From Pyramidobacter sp. YE332 (GTDB taxonomy: Bacteria; Synergistota; Synergistia; Synergistales; Dethiosulfovibrionaceae): a stretch of DNA of 64,000 bases. The translations under genes were made by a program, and so were the position numbers. The notes beneath the pieces were generated by a model that worked only from the letters and a program-made list of their open reading frames with translations, had not been told where the DNA came from and ran no database searches. Positions 2,314-44,154 of this stretch are shown piece by piece. The stretch is taken from positions 2,418,001-2,482,000 of the forward strand of contig NZ_CP133038.1 of NCBI RefSeq assembly GCF_033060595.1. Reading direction: 5' to 3'. Positions within the stretch are counted from its first letter, which is position 1, and each line of letters begins with the position of its first letter.

Positions 2314-3270
2314 TTAGCTGACGGCGACGATCTTTTTCACTTCGGTCAGAGGCTGTCCGTCGAGCATGACGCAGTAATCGCCGAAAGAGCGGGGAGTTGA
2401 AGCGTCATTATTTTTCCTGCAAACGACGCGCTCGAACAGACTTTCCGCCGAAGCGTTGCCAAGCGGGCTGCCGTGTTTGAAGATTACAAGGCGCCTGGCG
2501 GTCATCAGGCCACGGGCGGCGGAACGGTCATATTCGAACATGTTGAGCAGTGCTTCCCAGAAAAGTTCGAGATCCTCTTCGGAAAATCCCGTTTGAGCCG
2601 CCAGCTGCGGCGAAACGAAGCCGCGCGCGCAGTACAGGGCGTAGGGAACGGTGTACTTGCGCCCCATGGTACGCTCTTTGTCGACATCCTTTTCGTTGGT
2701 GACGGCCATGCGGGTGATGCTGTGCTCGGCGACGACGATCGGATCGTACGAACGGGAAAAGGTCAGCTGGATGGGGCCGCGCACCTGCCCGGCGCTCATC
2801 TTCAAATTCTTGCCGCCATTCTTATCTTTCGTGTTATCCTTGCTCTTTTCATCTTCCTTGTTTTCTTTATCGCTCTTACTGTCTCCTGTGCTGAGCACAG
2901 CACCGAAGGTGCGGATATCGTAATAACGCTTACACAGACGCTTACGAGCCTCATCTTCAACCTTCTGAGTTTCTTTTGCAGCTTTGACTTCTTTCGGCGT
3001 TCTGCCACCAGAAGCTCCCTTCCACTCCTCCTCGATCATATTGTTGAGAACAGCCTTTTCCTTCACAAAAATGTCATAGCCTTCCCGTCCGCCCTGAGTC
3101 AGCATCACATAGTTGCGGACCTTTCTTTTCAGGCAGACGTCGGTGACGAGGCCGTAACCGGTTTCGAGGTCCATGCGCGGCTGGTTGCCGAGGTCGGGAT
3201 CGCCGTTGGGGTTGCCGTCCTGTACGTCATAGAGAAGCACGAACTCATAACGATTTTTAAGCTCAGACAT
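2314..3270 (-). CDS. cas7: Type I-C Cascade backbone protein Cas7c (Csd2)
   Basis: Cas7c forms the helical filament that coats the crRNA spacer in the I-C Cascade complex. The 318-residue product starts with the family-typical RYEFVLLYDVQDGNPNGDPD and keeps RTFGAVLSTG (about 120-129) and GQVRGPIQLTFSRS (about 161-174). Between these lies a Lys/Glu/Asp-rich low-complexity stretch at about 130-158 that typical Csd2 proteins lack, as far as I recall the family. A GGAGG ribosome site precedes the ATG. It is the last gene of the cas operon, 14 bases after cas8c, and is followed directly by leader and array rather than cas4-cas1-cas2. Confidence 0.95.
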   Translation of the reverse strand: MSELKNRYEFVLLYDVQDGNPNGDPDLGNQPRMDLETGYGLVTDVCLKRKVRNYVMLTQGGREGYDIFVKEKAVLNNMIEEEWKGASGGRTPKEVKAAKETQKVEDEARKRLCKRYYDIRTFGAVLSTGDSKSDKENKEDEKSKDNTKDKNGGKNLKMSAGQVRGPIQLTFSRSYDPIVVAEHSITRMAVTNEKDVDKERTMGRKYTVPYALYCARGFVSPQLAAQTGFSEEDLELFWEALLNMFEYDRSAARGLMTARRLVIFKHGSPLGNASAESLFERVVCRKNNDASTPRSFGDYCVMLDGQPLTEVKKIVAVS

Positions 3271-3284
3271 GGGTGTTTTCCTCC

Positions 3285-5093
3285 TTATTCTTCTTCGTTC
3301 TGTAAGCTGATTTCAGCCACGTCAGCTTCAGTGCCCTCTTTTTTTGTAAAAAGCGCTTGACGCTGATGGTAATAGCCGAGGGCGAAAGCGCCCTGCCGGA
3401 TAATGTCGAGGCGGAGCGGAAAATGGTCGTTCATCAGCGACAGGATCTCGGCCAGCATCTGATTGTAATGAATCTGCGAGCCCATGCCGAGCTTTCTCAG
3501 ATGGAAGCGCTCCATCCGCAGCAAGCGGGGGATCACCGCCGCCGGCGTGGACGAAGCGGCGCCGTAATAGCGGTCGCCGATCGTCGCGTTGATTCCAGGC
3601 AAGGCGTCCTGCTGGATTTTTTCGATGACGGCAAAAAGACGGCCCAGCACGTACCCTTCGTTTCTGTTTTCCACATCCAGGGACATTGTAAAATTCTCCT
3701 TTCCCAGTTCATAGCGATTTCTTTGCGCCCAGCGGTTGAGACTGCCCTTGACCACGGCGGCCCACTCGTCGCGCATGCGGCGCTCGGCGCGGGCGCGACC
3801 GATCACCCTTTGATACAGCGTCATCGGATAACAGGAGCCGCCGACGACGCTGTCAAGCAGCGAACCGCTCAGGTTCGGCGGCAGTTTGTCCACTTTGCCG
3901 TCCAGCGTCGTCGAACGCAGGATTTCGTAGAGCGTAAACGAGGGACGTTCTCTCTTGCTGTTCATGACCGTAAAATCTTCAATGTGTTTTTGCAGGTTCC
4001 GCTTGAACTCTTTGATCGTCCCCGTCCTCCACAGTCGCACGGAGATCCGCGCGCTGTTCGGCGAAAGGCCCAAAAGATAAAAGCGTCCGTCCTCGGCGGC
4101 AAAGTCGATGCCCTGCCGCAGGTTTTCGAAATAAGCTCTGACTTTTTCGGCGCCTTTGTCGGGATCGTCCTCTTTCGGAACGCCGACGACCGTCGCGCGC
4201 AGGAACGACGCAAACGAGTCCTCGTCGTCCGGCGGCGCGACGTCTTTCTGCCCCTCCGGCGGCATGGTCCAGAACACGTAGCTGTCGCCCGCCAGATAAA
4301 AAGAGTTCCGCTCCGAAGCCAGCATCCCGTTGAGCGCCGTGGCATATTCGAAGGCCACCTGCTGCGAGACGGGCGCGTTCAGTCCTTGTTCCTTAAAATA
4401 AGAGTCGTAGCCGGACGATTTCTGAAATCCCACCAGCTTTCCCGTCGCCTGTCCGCCGCGGATCGGCGTCTGCGGATGGAGCACCGCCAGCGGACCGGTC
4501 TCGCCGGTGATCAGGCAGCGCCCGAGCCGGACGTCCTCCGCGGCGCCGTGCTTTTCTGAAGCCAGATCGAGGATTTCCGGCAGGGCCGCCACGGGGCGCG
4601 AGTCGCCGCTGAGGCGAAACGACATTTTGCAGCCGGGGATCGACGCGCAGTCTTTCCACTTCGGATCCTGAGCGACCTTTTCTCTTTCGTTTCCATCATA
4701 AAACGCCACAACGGCCGCGACGGCCTTCTTCGTTTCCGGCTCTTTGACCCGGGGTTCCACGGACTTGACGCGCCGGGTAAAAAATTCCAGCTTGTTGGCG
4801 GCCGTTTCGCGATCGGATTCGCCGTCGGACTTGGGATGACCGAGGACAAAATCGACGCTGTCCCACATCAGGCACGGTTTCTCGTAGGCTTTCTTCCCCG
4901 AGCGGATCTCCGCCTGCGGCAGCGTGTAGATTTTTCCTCTTTTCCCTTCGCGCAGGTCCACCAGCTGGCGGAACTTGCCTTGGTCCGAAATCTCCACAAG
5001 GAACTTCAGCTCGACTTCCGCGCAACCAAGCTTCTGCCCGCGCCCCAGCGCTTCCTGGCGTTTCTGGTACTGGTAGAGCGCCTGCAGGATCAT
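3285..5093 (-). CDS. cas8c: Type I-C Cascade large subunit Cas8c (Csd1)
   Basis: Cas8c is the large subunit that recognises the PAM and helps recruit Cas3. The 602-residue product opens with MILQALYQYQKR and has the Csd1-typical C-terminal helical part, which contains the small-subunit (Cas11c) region in known I-C systems. Its length is normal for the family. The ATG overlaps the cas5c stop in an ATGA, so the two are translationally coupled. An internal start for a separate Cas11c would be expected from work on other I-C systems; I did not identify one with confidence. Confidence 0.95.
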   Translation of the reverse strand: MILQALYQYQKRQEALGRGQKLGCAEVELKFLVEISDQGKFRQLVDLREGKRGKIYTLPQAEIRSGKKAYEKPCLMWDSVDFVLGHPKSDGESDRETAANKLEFFTRRVKSVEPRVKEPETKKAVAAVVAFYDGNEREKVAQDPKWKDCASIPGCKMSFRLSGDSRPVAALPEILDLASEKHGAAEDVRLGRCLITGETGPLAVLHPQTPIRGGQATGKLVGFQKSSGYDSYFKEQGLNAPVSQQVAFEYATALNGMLASERNSFYLAGDSYVFWTMPPEGQKDVAPPDDEDSFASFLRATVVGVPKEDDPDKGAEKVRAYFENLRQGIDFAAEDGRFYLLGLSPNSARISVRLWRTGTIKEFKRNLQKHIEDFTVMNSKRERPSFTLYEILRSTTLDGKVDKLPPNLSGSLLDSVVGGSCYPMTLYQRVIGRARAERRMRDEWAAVVKGSLNRWAQRNRYELGKENFTMSLDVENRNEGYVLGRLFAVIEKIQQDALPGINATIGDRYYGAASSTPAAVIPRLLRMERFHLRKLGMGSQIHYNQMLAEILSLMNDHFPLRLDIIRQGAFALGYYHQRQALFTKKEGTEADVAEISLQNEEE

Positions 5094-37109: not shown

Positions 37110-37989
37110 GGGCTTGTTTAAAAAACATTTCAGCTTGTATTATTTCAATAAAATAACACTGGCAGCGACAAGAACAAAAGCGAAAAACGAAGCGTCAAGT
37201 TTGTCATAGCGGGTGAAAATTCTACGGAACCATTTGATTTTCTGAAAGAAACATTCAACCAAGTGTCGTTCCTTGTAAACATGCTCATCTATAAACCACG
37301 GTTCGGGATTATCGCTCTTCGGCGGGATAGTGTAACTTCCCTCCCGAGAAGTAATGTACTCTCTGATGGCTTGCGAACCGTAAGCCTTATCGCCGATGAC
37401 GTTGCTCCCTCTGATTTCCGCTTGCCCGAGCAAGGACACGGCATGGCGGGAATCGTGGTCATTGCCGGGACTGAGCAGGAGCGCCAGCGGATTGCCTAAA
37501 CCATCTACTATCGCATGAATTTTCGTATTCTTGCCGCCTCTGGACATGCCAATCGCTTGAGCCCCTTTTTTCCCCCTTCCGGGGTTTTCCCTCTCCCGTT
37601 GGCACTTTGATGTACTTTGCAGGACGTGGAGTCGATAGAGAGATTTTCCATGTCGGCATCAGCGCTTAGGGCGGCAAAGATCGCCTCGAATATTCCCCGC
37701 TGTTTCCACAGCCTGAAACGTGCGTAAACTGCCTGCCATTTGCCGTAACGCTCCGGAAGATCTCTCCATGGCGCTCCACTTCTGGCAAGCCACAGAATCC
37801 CATTGATGATCCTGCGGTTATCGTATTTTGCCGGGCGTCCACGTTGACCTGATTTCGGGTGTTCGGGCGGCAGCATTCTCTTGATTCGATTCCACTCGCT
37901 GGAGGTCAGTTCATATCTTCTCTCTTCCATGAGAAAAGTTTAAGCGATTGGATCGATTTAGGCAACTTTGACGTTTTTTAAACAAGCCC
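37110..37989 (-). mobile_element. IS5-family (IS427-type) insertion sequence nested in IS30
   Basis: The 880-bp element has perfect 17-bp terminal inverted repeats GGGCTTGTTTAAAAAAC and a TA target duplication (37108-37109, 37990-37991). Removing it and one TA restores the exact IS30 sequence seen in copy 1 (TTGCATTTAGTCTGAATT), which proves the boundaries. Confidence 0.95.
37140..37930 (-). CDS. IS5/IS427-type transposase, two frames joined by -1 frameshift
   Basis: ORF A (37508-37930) has the DUF4096-like N-terminal domain (MEERRYELTSSEWNRIKRML, RSGAPWRDLPERYG) and the first catalytic Asp in SIDSTSCKVH. ORF B (ending 37140) has GDKAYGSQAIRE and ERHLVECFFQKIKWFRR with the second Asp and Glu. 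The frames meet at A AAA AAG (37571-37565), a canonical -1 slippery heptamer in the right phase. Slipping yields KKGAQAIGMSRGGKNTK, the joined sequence expected for the group. The element therefore looks functional. Confidence 0.9.
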
Positions 37990-38052
37990 TAGTCTGAATT
38001 GATGAAAGACCTTTCTTACGAGACAACAGATCTCGGAAAGGAGTTCATCATC

Positions 38053-39345
38053 ATGAACAAACATTTGACTCTGGCTGAAAGAAAAGCCATTGAAAGCGCC
38101 CTCAACCGGCGAGAATCTCTCAGAAGTATTGCCTCAACAGTTCTGAAGTCGCCGAGTACGATCTCCAGAGAGATCAGAAAACATGCAGAGACTGTCTTCA
38201 AAGGCTGTTATGGCCGGACAGCAAACTGCTGCCTTCACCGGTATGACTGCTCCGTTACTTCCCTTTGTAACACCTCTCCGAAATGCCGTTCACTGTGTTT
38301 CCGGTGCTCAAGATGTAATACGATGTGTCCTGACTTTAAGGAGGAGGTCTGCCCGCAGCTTTCGGTTCCTCCGTATGTCTGTAACGGCTGCCCCAACCGT
38401 CACCGCTGCACTTTAAAAAAACGGATCTATTCTGCTAAATCTGCAAATGACTCTTACGAGAAAACTTTGCATGAGGCTCGTGAAGGCTTCAATATCTCCG
38501 ATGCCGAGCTTGCAGATATTGATTCTTTTTTCTCTCCTCTCATCAAACAGGGGCAGTCTCTCTATCATATTATCCGTAATAATCGAGATACTGTTCCCTG
38601 TTCTGAAAGTACCGCCAGACGGCTCCTGCTTTCGGGTATTTTAGAGGCACGGAAAATAGACTTGCCCCGAGCTGTCCGTTTTAAGAAGAGAAAGGGAAAA
38701 AGAAATAACATGAAGGTGGATAAAAAATGTCGTGAAGGCCGTACCTACAATGATTTTCTCTCTTTTTCGGAGAAACATCCGGACATGCTTATTACCGAAA
38801 TCGACAGTGTCGTTGGCACCGCAGGAGGAAAAGTTCTTCTGACTGTCATCTTAAGAAACTGCAACTTTATGCTGGCTTTTTTGAGAGATAAAAATACTGC
38901 TCAATCTGTTGAGCAGATTTTTACAATGCTCTTCACTCTTCTGGGCAGGAAACGCTATAAGTCCATGTTTCAGGTCCTTCTTGCTGACAACGGTACAGAG
39001 TTTTCCAATCCGACGGCTATCGAAAAAGGTCCGGACGGAGAAAGAAAATCATATATGTTCTATTGCAATCCACAAGCACCGCAGGAAAAACCGAAGGTTG
39101 AAAATAATCATACTCTCATTCGAAGGATCCTTCCCAAGGGAACAACTTTCGACAATTTATCCCAAACTGATATCAACCTGATGATGTCTCATATAAACTC
39201 ATACGGGAGGAAAAAATTTAACGGAAAATCTCCTGCAGAGATCTTTATCAACCTGTATGGCGAGGACGTATTGCATTTACTCGGACTCGAACTTATTCCG
39301 CCACAGGATATCTGTTTAAAGCGGACTCTTCTCGCCGGTAAATAA
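38053..39345 (+). CDS. IS30-family transposase, intact
   Basis: The 430-residue protein has an N-terminal helix-turn-helix (ERKAIESALNRRESLRSIA), a middle region with about fourteen cysteines (CCLHRYDC, CFRCSRCNTMC, CPQLSVPPYVCNGC) likely to bind zinc, and the DDE core EIDSVVG, LLADNGTEF and KPKVENNH. AAAGGAG precedes the ATG. The nested IS5 element separates it from its own left end, so this copy may not be able to move normally, although it can still supply transposase. Confidence 0.93.
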   Translation: MNKHLTLAERKAIESALNRRESLRSIASTVLKSPSTISREIRKHAETVFKGCYGRTANCCLHRYDCSVTSLCNTSPKCRSLCFRCSRCNTMCPDFKEEVCPQLSVPPYVCNGCPNRHRCTLKKRIYSAKSANDSYEKTLHEAREGFNISDAELADIDSFFSPLIKQGQSLYHIIRNNRDTVPCSESTARRLLLSGILEARKIDLPRAVRFKKRKGKRNNMKVDKKCREGRTYNDFLSFSEKHPDMLITEIDSVVGTAGGKVLLTVILRNCNFMLAFLRDKNTAQSVEQIFTMLFTLLGRKRYKSMFQVLLADNGTEFSNPTAIEKGPDGERKSYMFYCNPQAPQEKPKVENNHTLIRRILPKGTTFDNLSQTDINLMMSHINSYGRKKFNGKSPAEIFINLYGEDVLHLLGLELIPPQDICLKRTLLAGK

Positions 39346-39888: not shown

Positions 39889-39928
39889 AAAAAAACAGAC
39901 CGGCCCCGCAGGGTCGGCCTGGTTTTTT
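39889..39928 (-). terminator. Terminator of the folate transporter gene
   Basis: On the minus strand a GC stem (AGGCCGACCC with GGGGCCGGTCT) overlapping the stop codon is followed by GTTTTTTT. Confidence 0.6.
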
Positions 39929-40523
39929 ATGTACGTCCTGAAAAACGCCCGCCGAAAAGCGGCAGGATCGCGCGCTCGACGGTCTTCAGCAGCAGATAGG
40001 TGACCAGCACGTCGCCGGGCAGGCAGATCAGGTTGGTCATGGCGCGCGCGGGGAAAATGGCCCACACGGCTTTTTTGTAGAGGATCACGAGCCACAGCGT
40101 GTTGCAGCCGAGGTTGACGATCAGCTTGACGAGCAGATGGGCGACGAACACGCGCGTCACCGTGAGCGGGCGGCGGTACAGTATCGTGCCGTAAATCACG
40201 CCGGCCAGAACGGCGCTGAGCGTGAAACCCGGAAAGTAAACGCCCTCGGGTTTGATCATGAACTTGATCACTTCCAGCGCGCCGGAGAACAAAGCCCCCG
40301 CGGCGGGGCCGAAGAGGTAGTCGACCACTTGGTTCGGGAAGCCCGACAGGCCGATCCTCAGATACGGCCCAAGGGAAATGGTGGCCACGGCGCGGAGGAT
40401 CACGGCCAGCGCGCACATGACGCCGCAGAACGCCACCACGCGGATGGAACGGAACTCGCGCAGCGAAGCGAGCCAACGGTTTTCGCCAGCGCCCAACGAA
40501 CGCGGATTGCCTGATGTCATCAT
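39927..40523 (-). CDS. folT: Folate-family ECF transporter S component
   Basis: This is the membrane substrate-binding subunit of an energy-coupling factor importer. The 198-residue protein has about six hydrophobic segments and family features (GPYLRIGLSGFPNQVVDYLFGP, GVYFPGFTLSAVLAGVIYG). The tetrahydrofolate riboswitch directly upstream supports folate as ligand. The shared EcfA/A'/T module is not in the window. The first of two tandem ATGs (40523) follows AAGGAGG by nine bases, and that ribosome site is part of a sequestering stem. Confidence 0.9.
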   Translation of the reverse strand: MMTSGNPRSLGAGENRWLASLREFRSIRVVAFCGVMCALAVILRAVATISLGPYLRIGLSGFPNQVVDYLFGPAAGALFSGALEVIKFMIKPEGVYFPGFTLSAVLAGVIYGTILYRRPLTVTRVFVAHLLVKLIVNLGCNTLWLVILYKKAVWAIFPARAMTNLICLPGDVLVTYLLLKTVERAILPLFGGRFSGRT

Positions 40524-40530
40524 ACAAAAG

Positions 40531-40732
40531 CGCCTCCTTCGCAGTAATTTCCTCTTACTACATAAGGAGGCGGACTCGCCCGATATGCAGCAGCGGGATG
40601 CAAAACCCGACACCGCAAGCCCGGAAGGCTTTTCGTCCAGCTGTCAACTCCCCGTTCAGCCGGCACTTGACGCATCGGTTTTTACTCTGCTTTGAGATGC
40701 CTCTATTATAATCGCCGTTTTGGACAATGCAA
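40531..40732 (-). ncRNA. Tetrahydrofolate (THF) riboswitch with promoter and RBS-sequestering stem
   Basis: On the minus strand the aptamer (40690-40587) has the THF-I core: GCAGAGTA, GCGTCAAGTGCCGG, GAACGGGGAGTTGAC, GACGAAAAG, GCGGTG, TTTTGCATCCCGCTGC, with GCAG/CTGC closing P1. Downstream, GCCTCCTT (40571-40564) can pair perfectly with the ribosome site AAGGAGGC of the S-component gene, so control is probably translational. The promoter is TTGCAT (40732-40727), 16 bases, TATAAT (40710-40705). Confidence 0.88.
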
Positions 40733-40835: not shown

Positions 40836-41863
40836 ATGAAAAGAATTCTCAGTTTTGCAGCCGTCGCCCTATTGGCGCTGGGGGGATGGATCGGCTGGAA
40901 CCAATTCGCAAAAACTCGGAAGCACAGCGTGAGCTTCTACGCCATGGACACGCCGATCACGCTGACGGCGTACGGGCCCCGCGGCAAGAGGGCGCTGTCG
41001 CTGGCCCGCGCGCGCGTCAAACAGATCGAAAGCAAGCTGTCCGTCACCGATCCGCGCAGCGACGTCGGCCGCCTCAACGCCGCCGGCGGCGCGCCGGTAC
41101 AGGTCGGCGAAGACGCGGCAGCGCTGACGGCCTTCGCGCTGCGCATGAACGCCCTGACGGACGGCGCGTTCGACCCCACGCTCTATCCCGCGCTGCGCGC
41201 CTGGGGCTTCACGACGGAGGAACGCCGCGTGCCCGAAGCCGCCGAATTGGCGGAACTGCTCAAACTCGCCGGCGCGGAGCGCGTCCACCTCTCTGGACGA
41301 ACGCTGCGCCTCGACGAAGGCAGCATGCTCGACCTCGGCGCCGTCGGCAAAGGATTCGCCGGCGACGAAGCGCTGGCCGCCATGGCCGCCGCGGGCGTTG
41401 AATCGGCGCTGGTCAACCTGGGCGGCAACGTGCAGACGCTAGGGGTGCGCCCCGACGGCCAAAGATGGCGCATCGGCATCAAGTCCCCGACGGCGGCCTG
41501 ATCGGCGTGCTGCGCACGGCGGCGGAGGCCGTCGTCACTTCCGGCGGCTACGAACGTTTCTTCACCGGCCCCGACGGCCAGATCTACTGGCACATCCTCG
41601 ATCCGCGCACGGGCGCCCCGGCGCGCAGCGGCGTGATCTCCGCCACGGCTGTCGGCCCCGAAGGCAGAATCTGCGACGCGATGTCCACGGCGTACTTCGT
41701 CATGGGCGCGGAAAAAACCGCCGCGTTTTGGAAAGAACACGGCAGTCCCGGCTTCGTGCTGCTCGCCGAAGACGGCGAACTGTGGGTCAGCGAGGATCTG
41801 AACGCGCGCTTCGCCGTCGATCCCGCTTACGCGGACGCGAAAGTAACGGTGGTGCGGCGATGA
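40836..41863 (+). pseudogene. apbE: FAD:protein FMN transferase ApbE, frameshifted
   Basis: ApbE attaches FMN to Thr/Ser of exported flavoproteins. The first frame (40836-41501) has an N-terminal membrane anchor, FYAMDTPITLTAYG, DPRSDVGRLNAAGG, and DLGAVGKGFAGDEAL with NLGGNVQTLG. The second frame (to 41863) resumes as VPDGGLIGVLRTAAEAVVTSGGYERFF and HILDPRTGAP, so nothing but the frame is lost. The break is at CCCC 41485-41488 and is restored by one added base. It may be a real mutation or a sequencing error. The stop overlaps the next gene in ATGA. Confidence 0.88.
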
Positions 41864-42966: not shown

Positions 42967-44154
42967 TCATTCTATGCCCTGGCGGCGTACCTCGTAAGGT
43001 TTGTTGGCTTTCAGAACAGCGTAAATCGTATAAAGCAGTTTTCTCGACACAGCCCCCAATGCAGTCCCATGCGCTTTCCCCTCACCGCGCTTCTTTTCGT
43101 AGAACGCTTTGAAGACAGGATCGCATCTGACTGCTATCAGCGCCGACATCCAGACAGCTCGTCTCAGGTAGGGGGATCCTTTCTTGGACAAGCGGTTGTG
43201 CTGGCCGACATAGTTCCCCGATTGAAACGAAGTCGGATCGATCCCGGCAAAGGCGACGAGTTTCTTGGGATTGGAGAAACGACTGATATCGCCGATCTCA
43301 CCGAGGATCACGGCGCCCGTCGCCGGCCCCACGCCGGGGACAGTGAGGATGACAGAGCTAAACTTCCTCAGCTGCCGGGCGATCTTCTTGTCGATCTCAT
43401 CGATCTGCTTCTCCGTGAATTCGATCTGTTCGATGAGAATCCTGATTTGAAAGGCAAAGGCATCCGAACACAGAGTCAGGCCGACCGAACGCGCCGCCAG
43501 AGACTTGAGCTCACGGGCTTTGTCAGTACCGTGCCGGCCCCGGCTGGTTTTTCTGAGCAAAGCGGCCAGCGATTTCGTGTTCACGTCGACCACCTGTTCC
43601 GGAGTGCCGTACGTCTTGAGAAATGCCTTTGAACTCTCGCCAAAGACGTTGGAGAACAAGGCGGCATACTCCGGAAACACCTGATCCAGAACGGTGACGA
43701 CCTGTCGCTTGTAGTCGGCGCAGGAGTCCTTGAGCGACTCTCTGAAACGGGCCAGATTGCGCAGCGCCATGATATCTTCATCAGCCAGATGAGTTGCGCT
43801 GAACGAGCCGAAACGGATCACCTCAGCCACCAGAAAGCAGTCGACCGCATCCGTTTTCTGCTTCCGGATGTGGAAGTTCCTCAGACTGTCGGATTGGATC
43901 GGGTTGATCACATGCAGAGCAAAACCCTGCTCCCGCAGAAAGGAGTAGAGCGCGAGCCAGTAATGACCGGTCGCCTCCATGCCGATACAGAAGGCCTCCC
44001 GCTCGGGAAGACTCTGTTCGAGAAAGAGCAGAAGCTGCTGAAAGCCCTCCTGCGCATTGGCGAAACGCAGCGACTTGCCGACGTGGCTGCCGTCCTCCCT
44101 GATAAGCCCTGCTTCGTGATTGTTCTTCCCGATGTCAATACCAAGATAGTACAT
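42967..44154 (-). CDS. IS110-family transposase
   Basis: IS110 recombinases combine a RuvC-like DEDD domain with a Tnp2 domain carrying a catalytic Ser. The 395-residue protein has YYLGIDIGKNNHEAG (first Asp), GMEATGHYW (Glu), KTDAVDCFLVAE (Asp pair), a coiled-coil middle, and TVPGVGPATGAVILGEIGD with AFAGIDPTSFQSGNY, which supplies the Ser. It is full length. GAGG lies close before the ATG. The longer non-coding flank is on the transposase 5' side, as in the IS110 group rather than IS1111. Confidence 0.93.
   Translation of the reverse strand: MYYLGIDIGKNNHEAGLIREDGSHVGKSLRFANAQEGFQQLLLFLEQSLPEREAFCIGMEATGHYWLALYSFLREQGFALHVINPIQSDSLRNFHIRKQKTDAVDCFLVAEVIRFGSFSATHLADEDIMALRNLARFRESLKDSCADYKRQVVTVLDQVFPEYAALFSNVFGESSKAFLKTYGTPEQVVDVNTKSLAALLRKTSRGRHGTDKARELKSLAARSVGLTLCSDAFAFQIRILIEQIEFTEKQIDEIDKKIARQLRKFSSVILTVPGVGPATGAVILGEIGDISRFSNPKKLVAFAGIDPTSFQSGNYVGQHNRLSKKGSPYLRRAVWMSALIAVRCDPVFKAFYEKKRGEGKAHGTALGAVSRKLLYTIYAVLKANKPYEVRRQGIE

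Follow-up and report, generated by a model that had tools for sequence, protein, structure and literature searches.

At this locus a folate-transporter gene, folT, lies on the minus strand of a 64,000-nt stretch of Pyramidobacter DNA (the window), and its leader combines a promoter motif, a THF-I riboswitch aptamer and a hairpin that contains the Shine-Dalgarno (SD) sequence. The features are as follows:

39927-40523, minus strand: folT, folate-family ECF S component of 198 aa (TIGR04518, PF12822 and PDB matches)
40533-40539, minus strand: Shine-Dalgarno sequence AAGGAGG, 9 nt upstream of the ATG (sequence)
40540-40547, minus strand: UUACUGCG, partner of UGUAGUAA (40562-40555) in the OFF hairpin (MFE folds)
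40556-40564, minus strand: putative anti-P1' strand UAUGUAGUA (complementarity and comparison of leaders)
40564-40572, minus strand: anti-Shine-Dalgarno CGCCUCCUU (sequence, MFE folds and shuffle test)
40568-40581, minus strand: possible 5-bp mini-hairpin GGGCG-AGUC-CGCCU, which would mask the anti-SD without THF (suggested by the sequence)
40584-40592, minus strand: UGCUGCAUA, most of the P1 3' strand plus 5 nt, anti-P1' partner in the proposed THF-free state (complementarity, with comparative support)
40589-40593, minus strand: P1 3' strand CUGCU (RF01831 alignment)
40589-40691, minus strand: THF-I aptamer (RF01831, full length, 83.1 bits, gathering score 36)
40687-40691, minus strand: P1 5' strand AGCAG (RF01831 alignment)
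40705-40710, minus strand: -10 box TATAAT (sequence; present in 6/6 Pyramidobacter leaders)
40727-40732, minus strand: weak -35-like hexamer TTGCAT (3/6 consensus positions; 6/6 Pyramidobacter leaders)

The THF-I aptamer of the original prediction is confirmed by an Rfam search of the window: RF01831 matches at 40691-40589 (-) from end to end (model positions 1-99), scoring 83.1 bits (gathering score 36; E-value 1e-17), and the 3' end of the match lies 65 nt upstream of the ATG of the TIGR04518 gene on the same strand. This segment is a genuine THF-I aptamer, and from its sequence would be expected to bind THF. No other Rfam family reaches its gathering threshold in the window, so there is no THF-II match and other riboswitch classes are excluded for this leader; RF01831 itself matches once in the 2.8-Mb genome, which thus has no second THF riboswitch by this search. 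All six Pyramidobacter genomes retain the aptamer, at 81.3 to 85.2 bits. The "good promoter" claimed upstream of it stood up in one half: TATAAT (40710-40705) is perfect and ends 13 nt upstream of the aptamer, whereas the -35 hexamer TTGCAT (40732-40727, spacer 16) is weak, with 3/6 identity to TTGACA, and is not reported by a consensus promoter scan of the window. The combination TTGCAT-16-TATAAT is found in 6/6 Pyramidobacter leaders, 12-13 nt from the aptamer but 93 nt from it in L006.

The passages on THF-I in PMC9881143 and PMC6800512 place the class in Gram-positive bacteria, and those in PMC9881143 name folC, folE and folT as its genes. With the RF01831 riboswitches of folT, folE and folC leaders in Firmicutes, the window leader shares the aptamer, a folT gene downstream, P1 as the switch helix and the expected OFF logic; it differs in its host phylum, Synergistota. 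We found no open-access report of THF-I in Synergistota; the founding paper (Ames 2010) lay outside this comparison and may already show the anti-P1' pairing described below or Synergistota members of the class. A THF-II riboswitch resembles the window leader in sensing THF and hiding the SD, but its aptamer is described as another one, in which the right arm of P1 contains the SD (PMC9881143, in the part on THF-II). What is unusual in the window system is its host and the pocket residues of its FolT; as a riboswitch it is otherwise ordinary.

The gene downstream of the aptamer is, as had been proposed, that of a folate S component. Its product scores 104 bits against TIGR04518 (cut-off 60) and 40.8 bits against PF12822 (cut-off 30.7), matches folate S components in the PDB with E-values of 5e-22 to 2e-13, and is 99% identical in Pyramidobacter sp. 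C12-8; the window's genome holds no further match over the FolT cut-off. In an alignment to 4z7f, Phe80, Thr81, Asn117 and Arg142 of EfFolT are kept, whereas four contacts are changed (Lys36 to Arg, Asp64 to Glu, Lys145 to Thr and Thr121 to Asn) and the position of Arg26 is uncertain. The view that the riboswitch assigns folate as the ligand agrees with the TIGR04518 match, but the changes at Asp64 and Lys145, which recur in six Pyramidobacter genomes, make the assignment provisional; in the window protein the two positions are residues 84 and 163. A change of preference is possible: the protein might carry a related pterin or a special form of folate and not folic acid, which we consider rather unlikely and which is compatible with our main reading of the RNA. 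All 7 Pyramidobacter rows of our FolT alignment (6 genomes) have Glu in place of Asp64 and Thr, Ala or Gly in place of Lys145, whereas Asp is present in 42/43 of the other rows; the branch that leads to the Pyramidobacter proteins is long (0.98), and the mutagenesis results given in PMC4525288 for E. faecalis FolT are that D64A abolishes binding and that K145A/T lowers it ~110-fold. Weighing against such a shift are the TIGR04518 score, the four retained residues, and the position of the gene, the only one in this likely folate-auxotrophic genome to exceed the FolT cut-off, behind a THF sensor. A further point against it is that Lys145 is also missing from riboswitch-linked rows elsewhere: none of the 10 other Synergistota rows has it, and many Lachnospirales rows carry Q, S or V in its place.

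Between aptamer and gene, the pairing that had been claimed for the ribosome site is present without a mismatch. GCCTCCTT lies at 40571-40564 and AAGGAGGC at 40539-40532 (-), and the extended strands CGCCUCCUU (40572-40564) and AAGGAGGCG (40539-40531) form 9 perfect pairs, with 8 more above one bulged A; the resulting 42-nt hairpin has a stem of 17 bp and an MFE of -24.0 kcal/mol. The folT start ATG is at 40523, with a second ATG after it. When the 49 nt preceding the SD side were dinucleotide-shuffled 20,000 times, GCCTCCTT arose 23 times and CGCCTCCTT 7 times, indicating that chance does not explain an 8- or 9-nt anti-SD without mismatch. Counting both strands, AAGGAGGC occurs 4 times in the window, and GCCTCCTT lies at most 60 nt upstream in 2 of these, both of which are the single folT-leader hairpin counted once per strand.

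A stem of this kind could also be, or mainly be, an intrinsic terminator, with THF causing premature termination and not a block of translation alone. We judge this unlikely. CUUUUGU follows directly 3' of the 17-bp stem (UUUUUGU in L003 and L008), and three Synergistota relatives (L010, L013 and L017) have clear terminators at that place. Further, at least 5 T occur in the 8 nt right after the SD core in 67/97 distinct leaders of the wider set described below, the window's among them; these T-rich tails led us to give more weight to termination, and less to the translational reading. Against it, the terminator scan gave no site in the window leader, with the caveat that its stem model may disallow the bulge; the SD itself is part of the stem, at 9 nt from the start codon, in keeping with translational control; and in L002, L007 and L009 no more than 4 T come after the SD hairpin. 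Our preferred reading remains that the hairpin acts on translation.

Since the SD stem alone would not respond to THF, we searched for a strand that competes for P1. The strand UAUGUAGUA, beside the anti-SD, is likely the element that couples the aptamer to the SD hairpin. A candidate of this kind, located between anti-SD and SD and able to pair with the 3' strand of P1 plus the nucleotides next to it, exists in 16/19 Synergistota leaders; the remaining three are those with a clear terminator at that place (L010, L013, L017). The candidate strand adjoins the anti-SD in 13/16 leaders, a count that includes the duplicate leaders L005 and L016, and lies 10 to 20 nt farther away in L002, L007 and L009. 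For 10 of the 16 leaders no more than 1 of 300 shuffles was as good; for each of the six from Pyramidobacter between 23 and 45 were. The match in the window leader is accordingly unexceptional by itself, as 44/300 shuffles gave an equally stable duplex and 14% of swapped P1' strands equalled it. Among the Pyramidobacter leaders, P1 5', P1 3' and anti-P1' change together at one position, which reads A-U-A in L001, L003 and L008 versus G-C-G in L004 and L006.

A larger comparison was made with 110 leaders: 19 from Synergistota, 90 from the order of a Lachnospiraceae MAG, in which 98/246 genomes carry the riboswitch (104 matches), and a single leader from a Candidatus Scybalousia MAG. An SD and a start could be recognised in 102 of the 110, of which 97 are distinct, and in 91 of these 97 at least 3 of the 5 SD-core nucleotides pair with upstream sequence in the MFE of the 3' part of the leader. 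We scored pairing of each leader's own P1' strand in the 20 nt beside the anti-SD and compared the counts with those from 500 rounds in which P1' strands were exchanged among leaders. In 23/91 leaders 9 or more of the 10 pairs form (swap mean 6.8, maximum 15), and in 36/91 leaders 8 or more do (swap mean 22.7, maximum 33); shuffled windows, given with the latter cut, had a mean of 5.9 and a maximum of 13. Covariation was scored in 51 leaders, with the anti strand chosen by its own motif: a terminal C of P1 stands opposite G in 20/20 cases, and the 27 terminal U face A in 19 cases and G in 8, while P1 ends in A or G in the remaining 4. The Fisher p-value of 4e-7 does not correct for kinship and is too small because the leaders are related. 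The alternative P1'/anti-P1' helix is thus supported across the 91 folded leaders, with covariation, and weakly so for the window leader alone. A match of at least 8 of 10 is absent beside the anti-SD in 55/91 leaders, and other platforms therefore occur. In one leader of the Lachnospiraceae-order set (L088), the ORF downstream of the THF-I riboswitch has no phmmer match to FolT.

Taken together, the sequence and its relatives suggest that this THF-I riboswitch quite probably shuts off folT translation when THF is plentiful. Transcription would start just past TATAAT, and the aptamer would then fold. With THF, or a one-carbon form of it, bound, P1 would be kept closed; the free anti-P1' strand would then zip up with UUACUGCG and pull the anti-SD onto the SD, and the 17-bp hairpin would block the start of the ribosome (OFF). 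Without THF, the anti-P1' strand would pair with the P1 3' strand (UGCUGCAUA/UAUGUAGUA), keeping the anti-SD apart, perhaps held by GGGCG/CGCCU, and leaving the SD open (ON). The choice between the folds would be made during transcription, once P1' and anti-P1' have been made and with the SD still to come; we infer both this kinetic choice and the direction of the switch. THF binding near P1 is described as the regulatory step in the relevant part of PMC11477058. The "simple translational switch" of the original prediction is in this way supported as to SD sequestration, but it omits the anti-P1' strand that would couple the aptamer to the stem, and termination may have a share in the control. 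The proposal gives the THF-I platform a concrete three-strand link between ligand and ribosome access, with covariation across leaders.

The folding energies bear on how such a switch could work. With the aptamer forced, the window leader folds at -64.3 kcal/mol and with anti-P1' forced at -63.9, i.e. nearly equal, whereas the free MFE is -73.2 kcal/mol with P1 unformed. The SD core is paired in all three folds. Four of the GGGCG/CGCCU mini-hairpin pairs are present in the forced ON fold, and forcing this fold frees all five SD core nucleotides in only 2/16 Synergistota leaders (L012, L014). Simple equilibrium switching is not supported by the forced folds, in which the window's SD stays paired throughout; since equilibrium folds do not show an open SD, a working switch would need kinetic control or help from the ribosome. 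It is very improbable that the SD hairpin is instead effectively permanent and the aptamer decaying, with folT expressed at a low, unswitched level, since, although the hairpin alone (-24.0 kcal/mol) is far more stable than the alternative helix (-10.3) and every fold of the window leader has its SD paired, the aptamer scores strongly against the family model (83.1 bits), is kept with its promoter motif in all 6 Pyramidobacter genomes, and has a P1 that co-varies with anti-P1'.

In the switch that we favour, FolT would associate with the shared ECF module of the genome, feeding folate to a cell seemingly unable to make it. Control in the absence of transport ATPases nearby, which had been pointed out for this locus, is true but usual: the module lies ~1.57 Mb along the contig from folT (at G000:C1 ~881-884 kb, the window being at 2.42-2.48 Mb) and comprises two ABC ATPase ORFs and a T component (PF02361, 138.5 bits), followed by a tRNA pseudouridine synthase gene. 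The best names for the ATPases are ECF_ATPase_1, for an ORF truncated at the end of the locus, and ECF_ATPase_2, with 303 bits; neither reaches its curated cut-off. A second T component at 2.40 Mb probably belongs to a cobalt transporter, its neighbour ORF having been judged by eye. The arrangement resembles that of group II ECF folate transporters, in which a solitary FolT uses a shared A-A'-T module encoded elsewhere; the window FolT differs in its two changed pocket residues. Our search for folate synthesis covered FolK, GTP cyclohydrolase I and the pterin-binding domain. Neither HPPK (FolK) nor GTP cyclohydrolase I was found in the genome, and its sole pterin-binding domain is in a MetH-like ORF that scores under the methionine synthase cut-off; HPPK was likewise not found in 6/6 Pyramidobacter genomes, two of them 82-83% complete. 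With no FolK and no GTP cyclohydrolase I detected, this Pyramidobacter is likely a folate auxotroph. PMC6593275 names Synergistetes as one of the phyla in which vitamin auxotrophs are most numerous. Across Synergistota, carriage of the riboswitch goes with undetected FolK: no HPPK was detected in 14/19 genomes with the riboswitch versus 23/166 without, counts that include some genomes 77-85% complete and are uncorrected for kinship and completeness.

Not every THF-I leader in this phylum precedes folT. In L010 (genome G034) and L017 (G037) the riboswitch and a terminator lie directly 5' of a DUF3798 gene, and the G034 locus corresponds to L028:2742-4141, with the DUF3798 gene at 2918-4141. The G034 protein scores 361 bits in Pfam, and the partly masked G037 protein matches it in phmmer with 116.6 bits. 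No FolT over the cut-off was found in G034 (best 28.6 of 60 bits) or in G037 (no match; genome 89% complete), and HPPK has no match in G034 and two in G037. In G108 a similar leader lies 5' of a folT start cut by the contig end (53.6 bits), the remainder of that gene apparently being on another contig (79.8 bits). DUF3798 genes adjoin an ABC ATPase and a permease in the window's own genome (L170); in G034 one is upstream of a permease (L168) and another just 5' of gcvT and a glycine-cleavage P gene (L169:2902-7496). The glycine-cleavage pathway uses THF. These neighbourhoods fit the binding protein of an importer; a signal-like N-terminus, judged by eye, would place the protein outside the membrane, and the riboswitch is the one pointer to folate as its ligand. 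We tentatively propose, as a possible but somewhat doubtful reading, that a THF-I leader in Synergistota marks a folate importer that is not always FolT, with the DUF3798 protein, located outside the membrane and binding folate or a pterin, in the place of FolT and feeding an ABC permease of the type that neighbours other DUF3798 genes. A family devoted to folate is ruled out, DUF3798 being present in 157/185 Synergistota genomes, often in several copies. None of 30 loci of the best-scoring DUF3798 genes holds a riboswitch at the gathering threshold, where seven tRNAs, all in L053, were found. An operon of the riboswitch-linked gene with NMT1-type ABC genes (L028) is doubtful because of a 1.6 kb gap downstream. 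We found no substrate for DUF3798 in the published literature, and a THF switch on such a gene in genomes with no recognised FolT makes this function-unassigned family testable.

The origin of the window's folT appears to lie outside the phylum. Our FolT tree has 50 rows, 48 of them different, and samples two groups, with 7 Pyramidobacter rows from 6 genomes. The Pyramidobacter proteins form a fork (99/95) with 12 rows from Lachnospirales-order genomes and a Scybalousia MAG, while the ten other Synergistota rows stand apart from it (98/94); a constraint joining all Synergistota FolT, tested after the tree was seen, is rejected (p-AU 0.002). Candidatus Scybalousia (L022, L065) is labelled Bacteroidota in the tree output. 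The window FolT thus groups with Firmicutes-type FolT and not with that of other Synergistota, and the gene probably came by transfer from a distant group. Three folT leaders of the Lachnospiraceae-MAG order (L066, L068 and L095) have the window's order of P1', anti-SD, anti-P1', loop, partner and SD. Two of them, L066 and L068, belong to genes inside the Pyramidobacter FolT fork, and the simplest reading of the fork and the shared platform order would be a joint lateral transfer of riboswitch and folT, i.e. regulator and transporter apparently moved jointly into a lineage that lacks folate synthesis. The L066 and L068 proteins have the Asp and Lys of the pocket, whereas Pyramidobacter FolT has Glu and Thr/Ala/Gly at those places. 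The folT locus is flanked by transposase-like ORFs at 37140-39345 and 42967-44154, of which the ORF at 37999-39345 has an HTH_38 match and the others were judged by eye. Divergent from folT is an ApbE gene (40836-41863, +) that is split into two frames (PF02424 positions 1-179 and 178-258); the same neighbour is one open frame in L005, L003 and L008, and the split in the window is either a sequencing error or a real frameshift.
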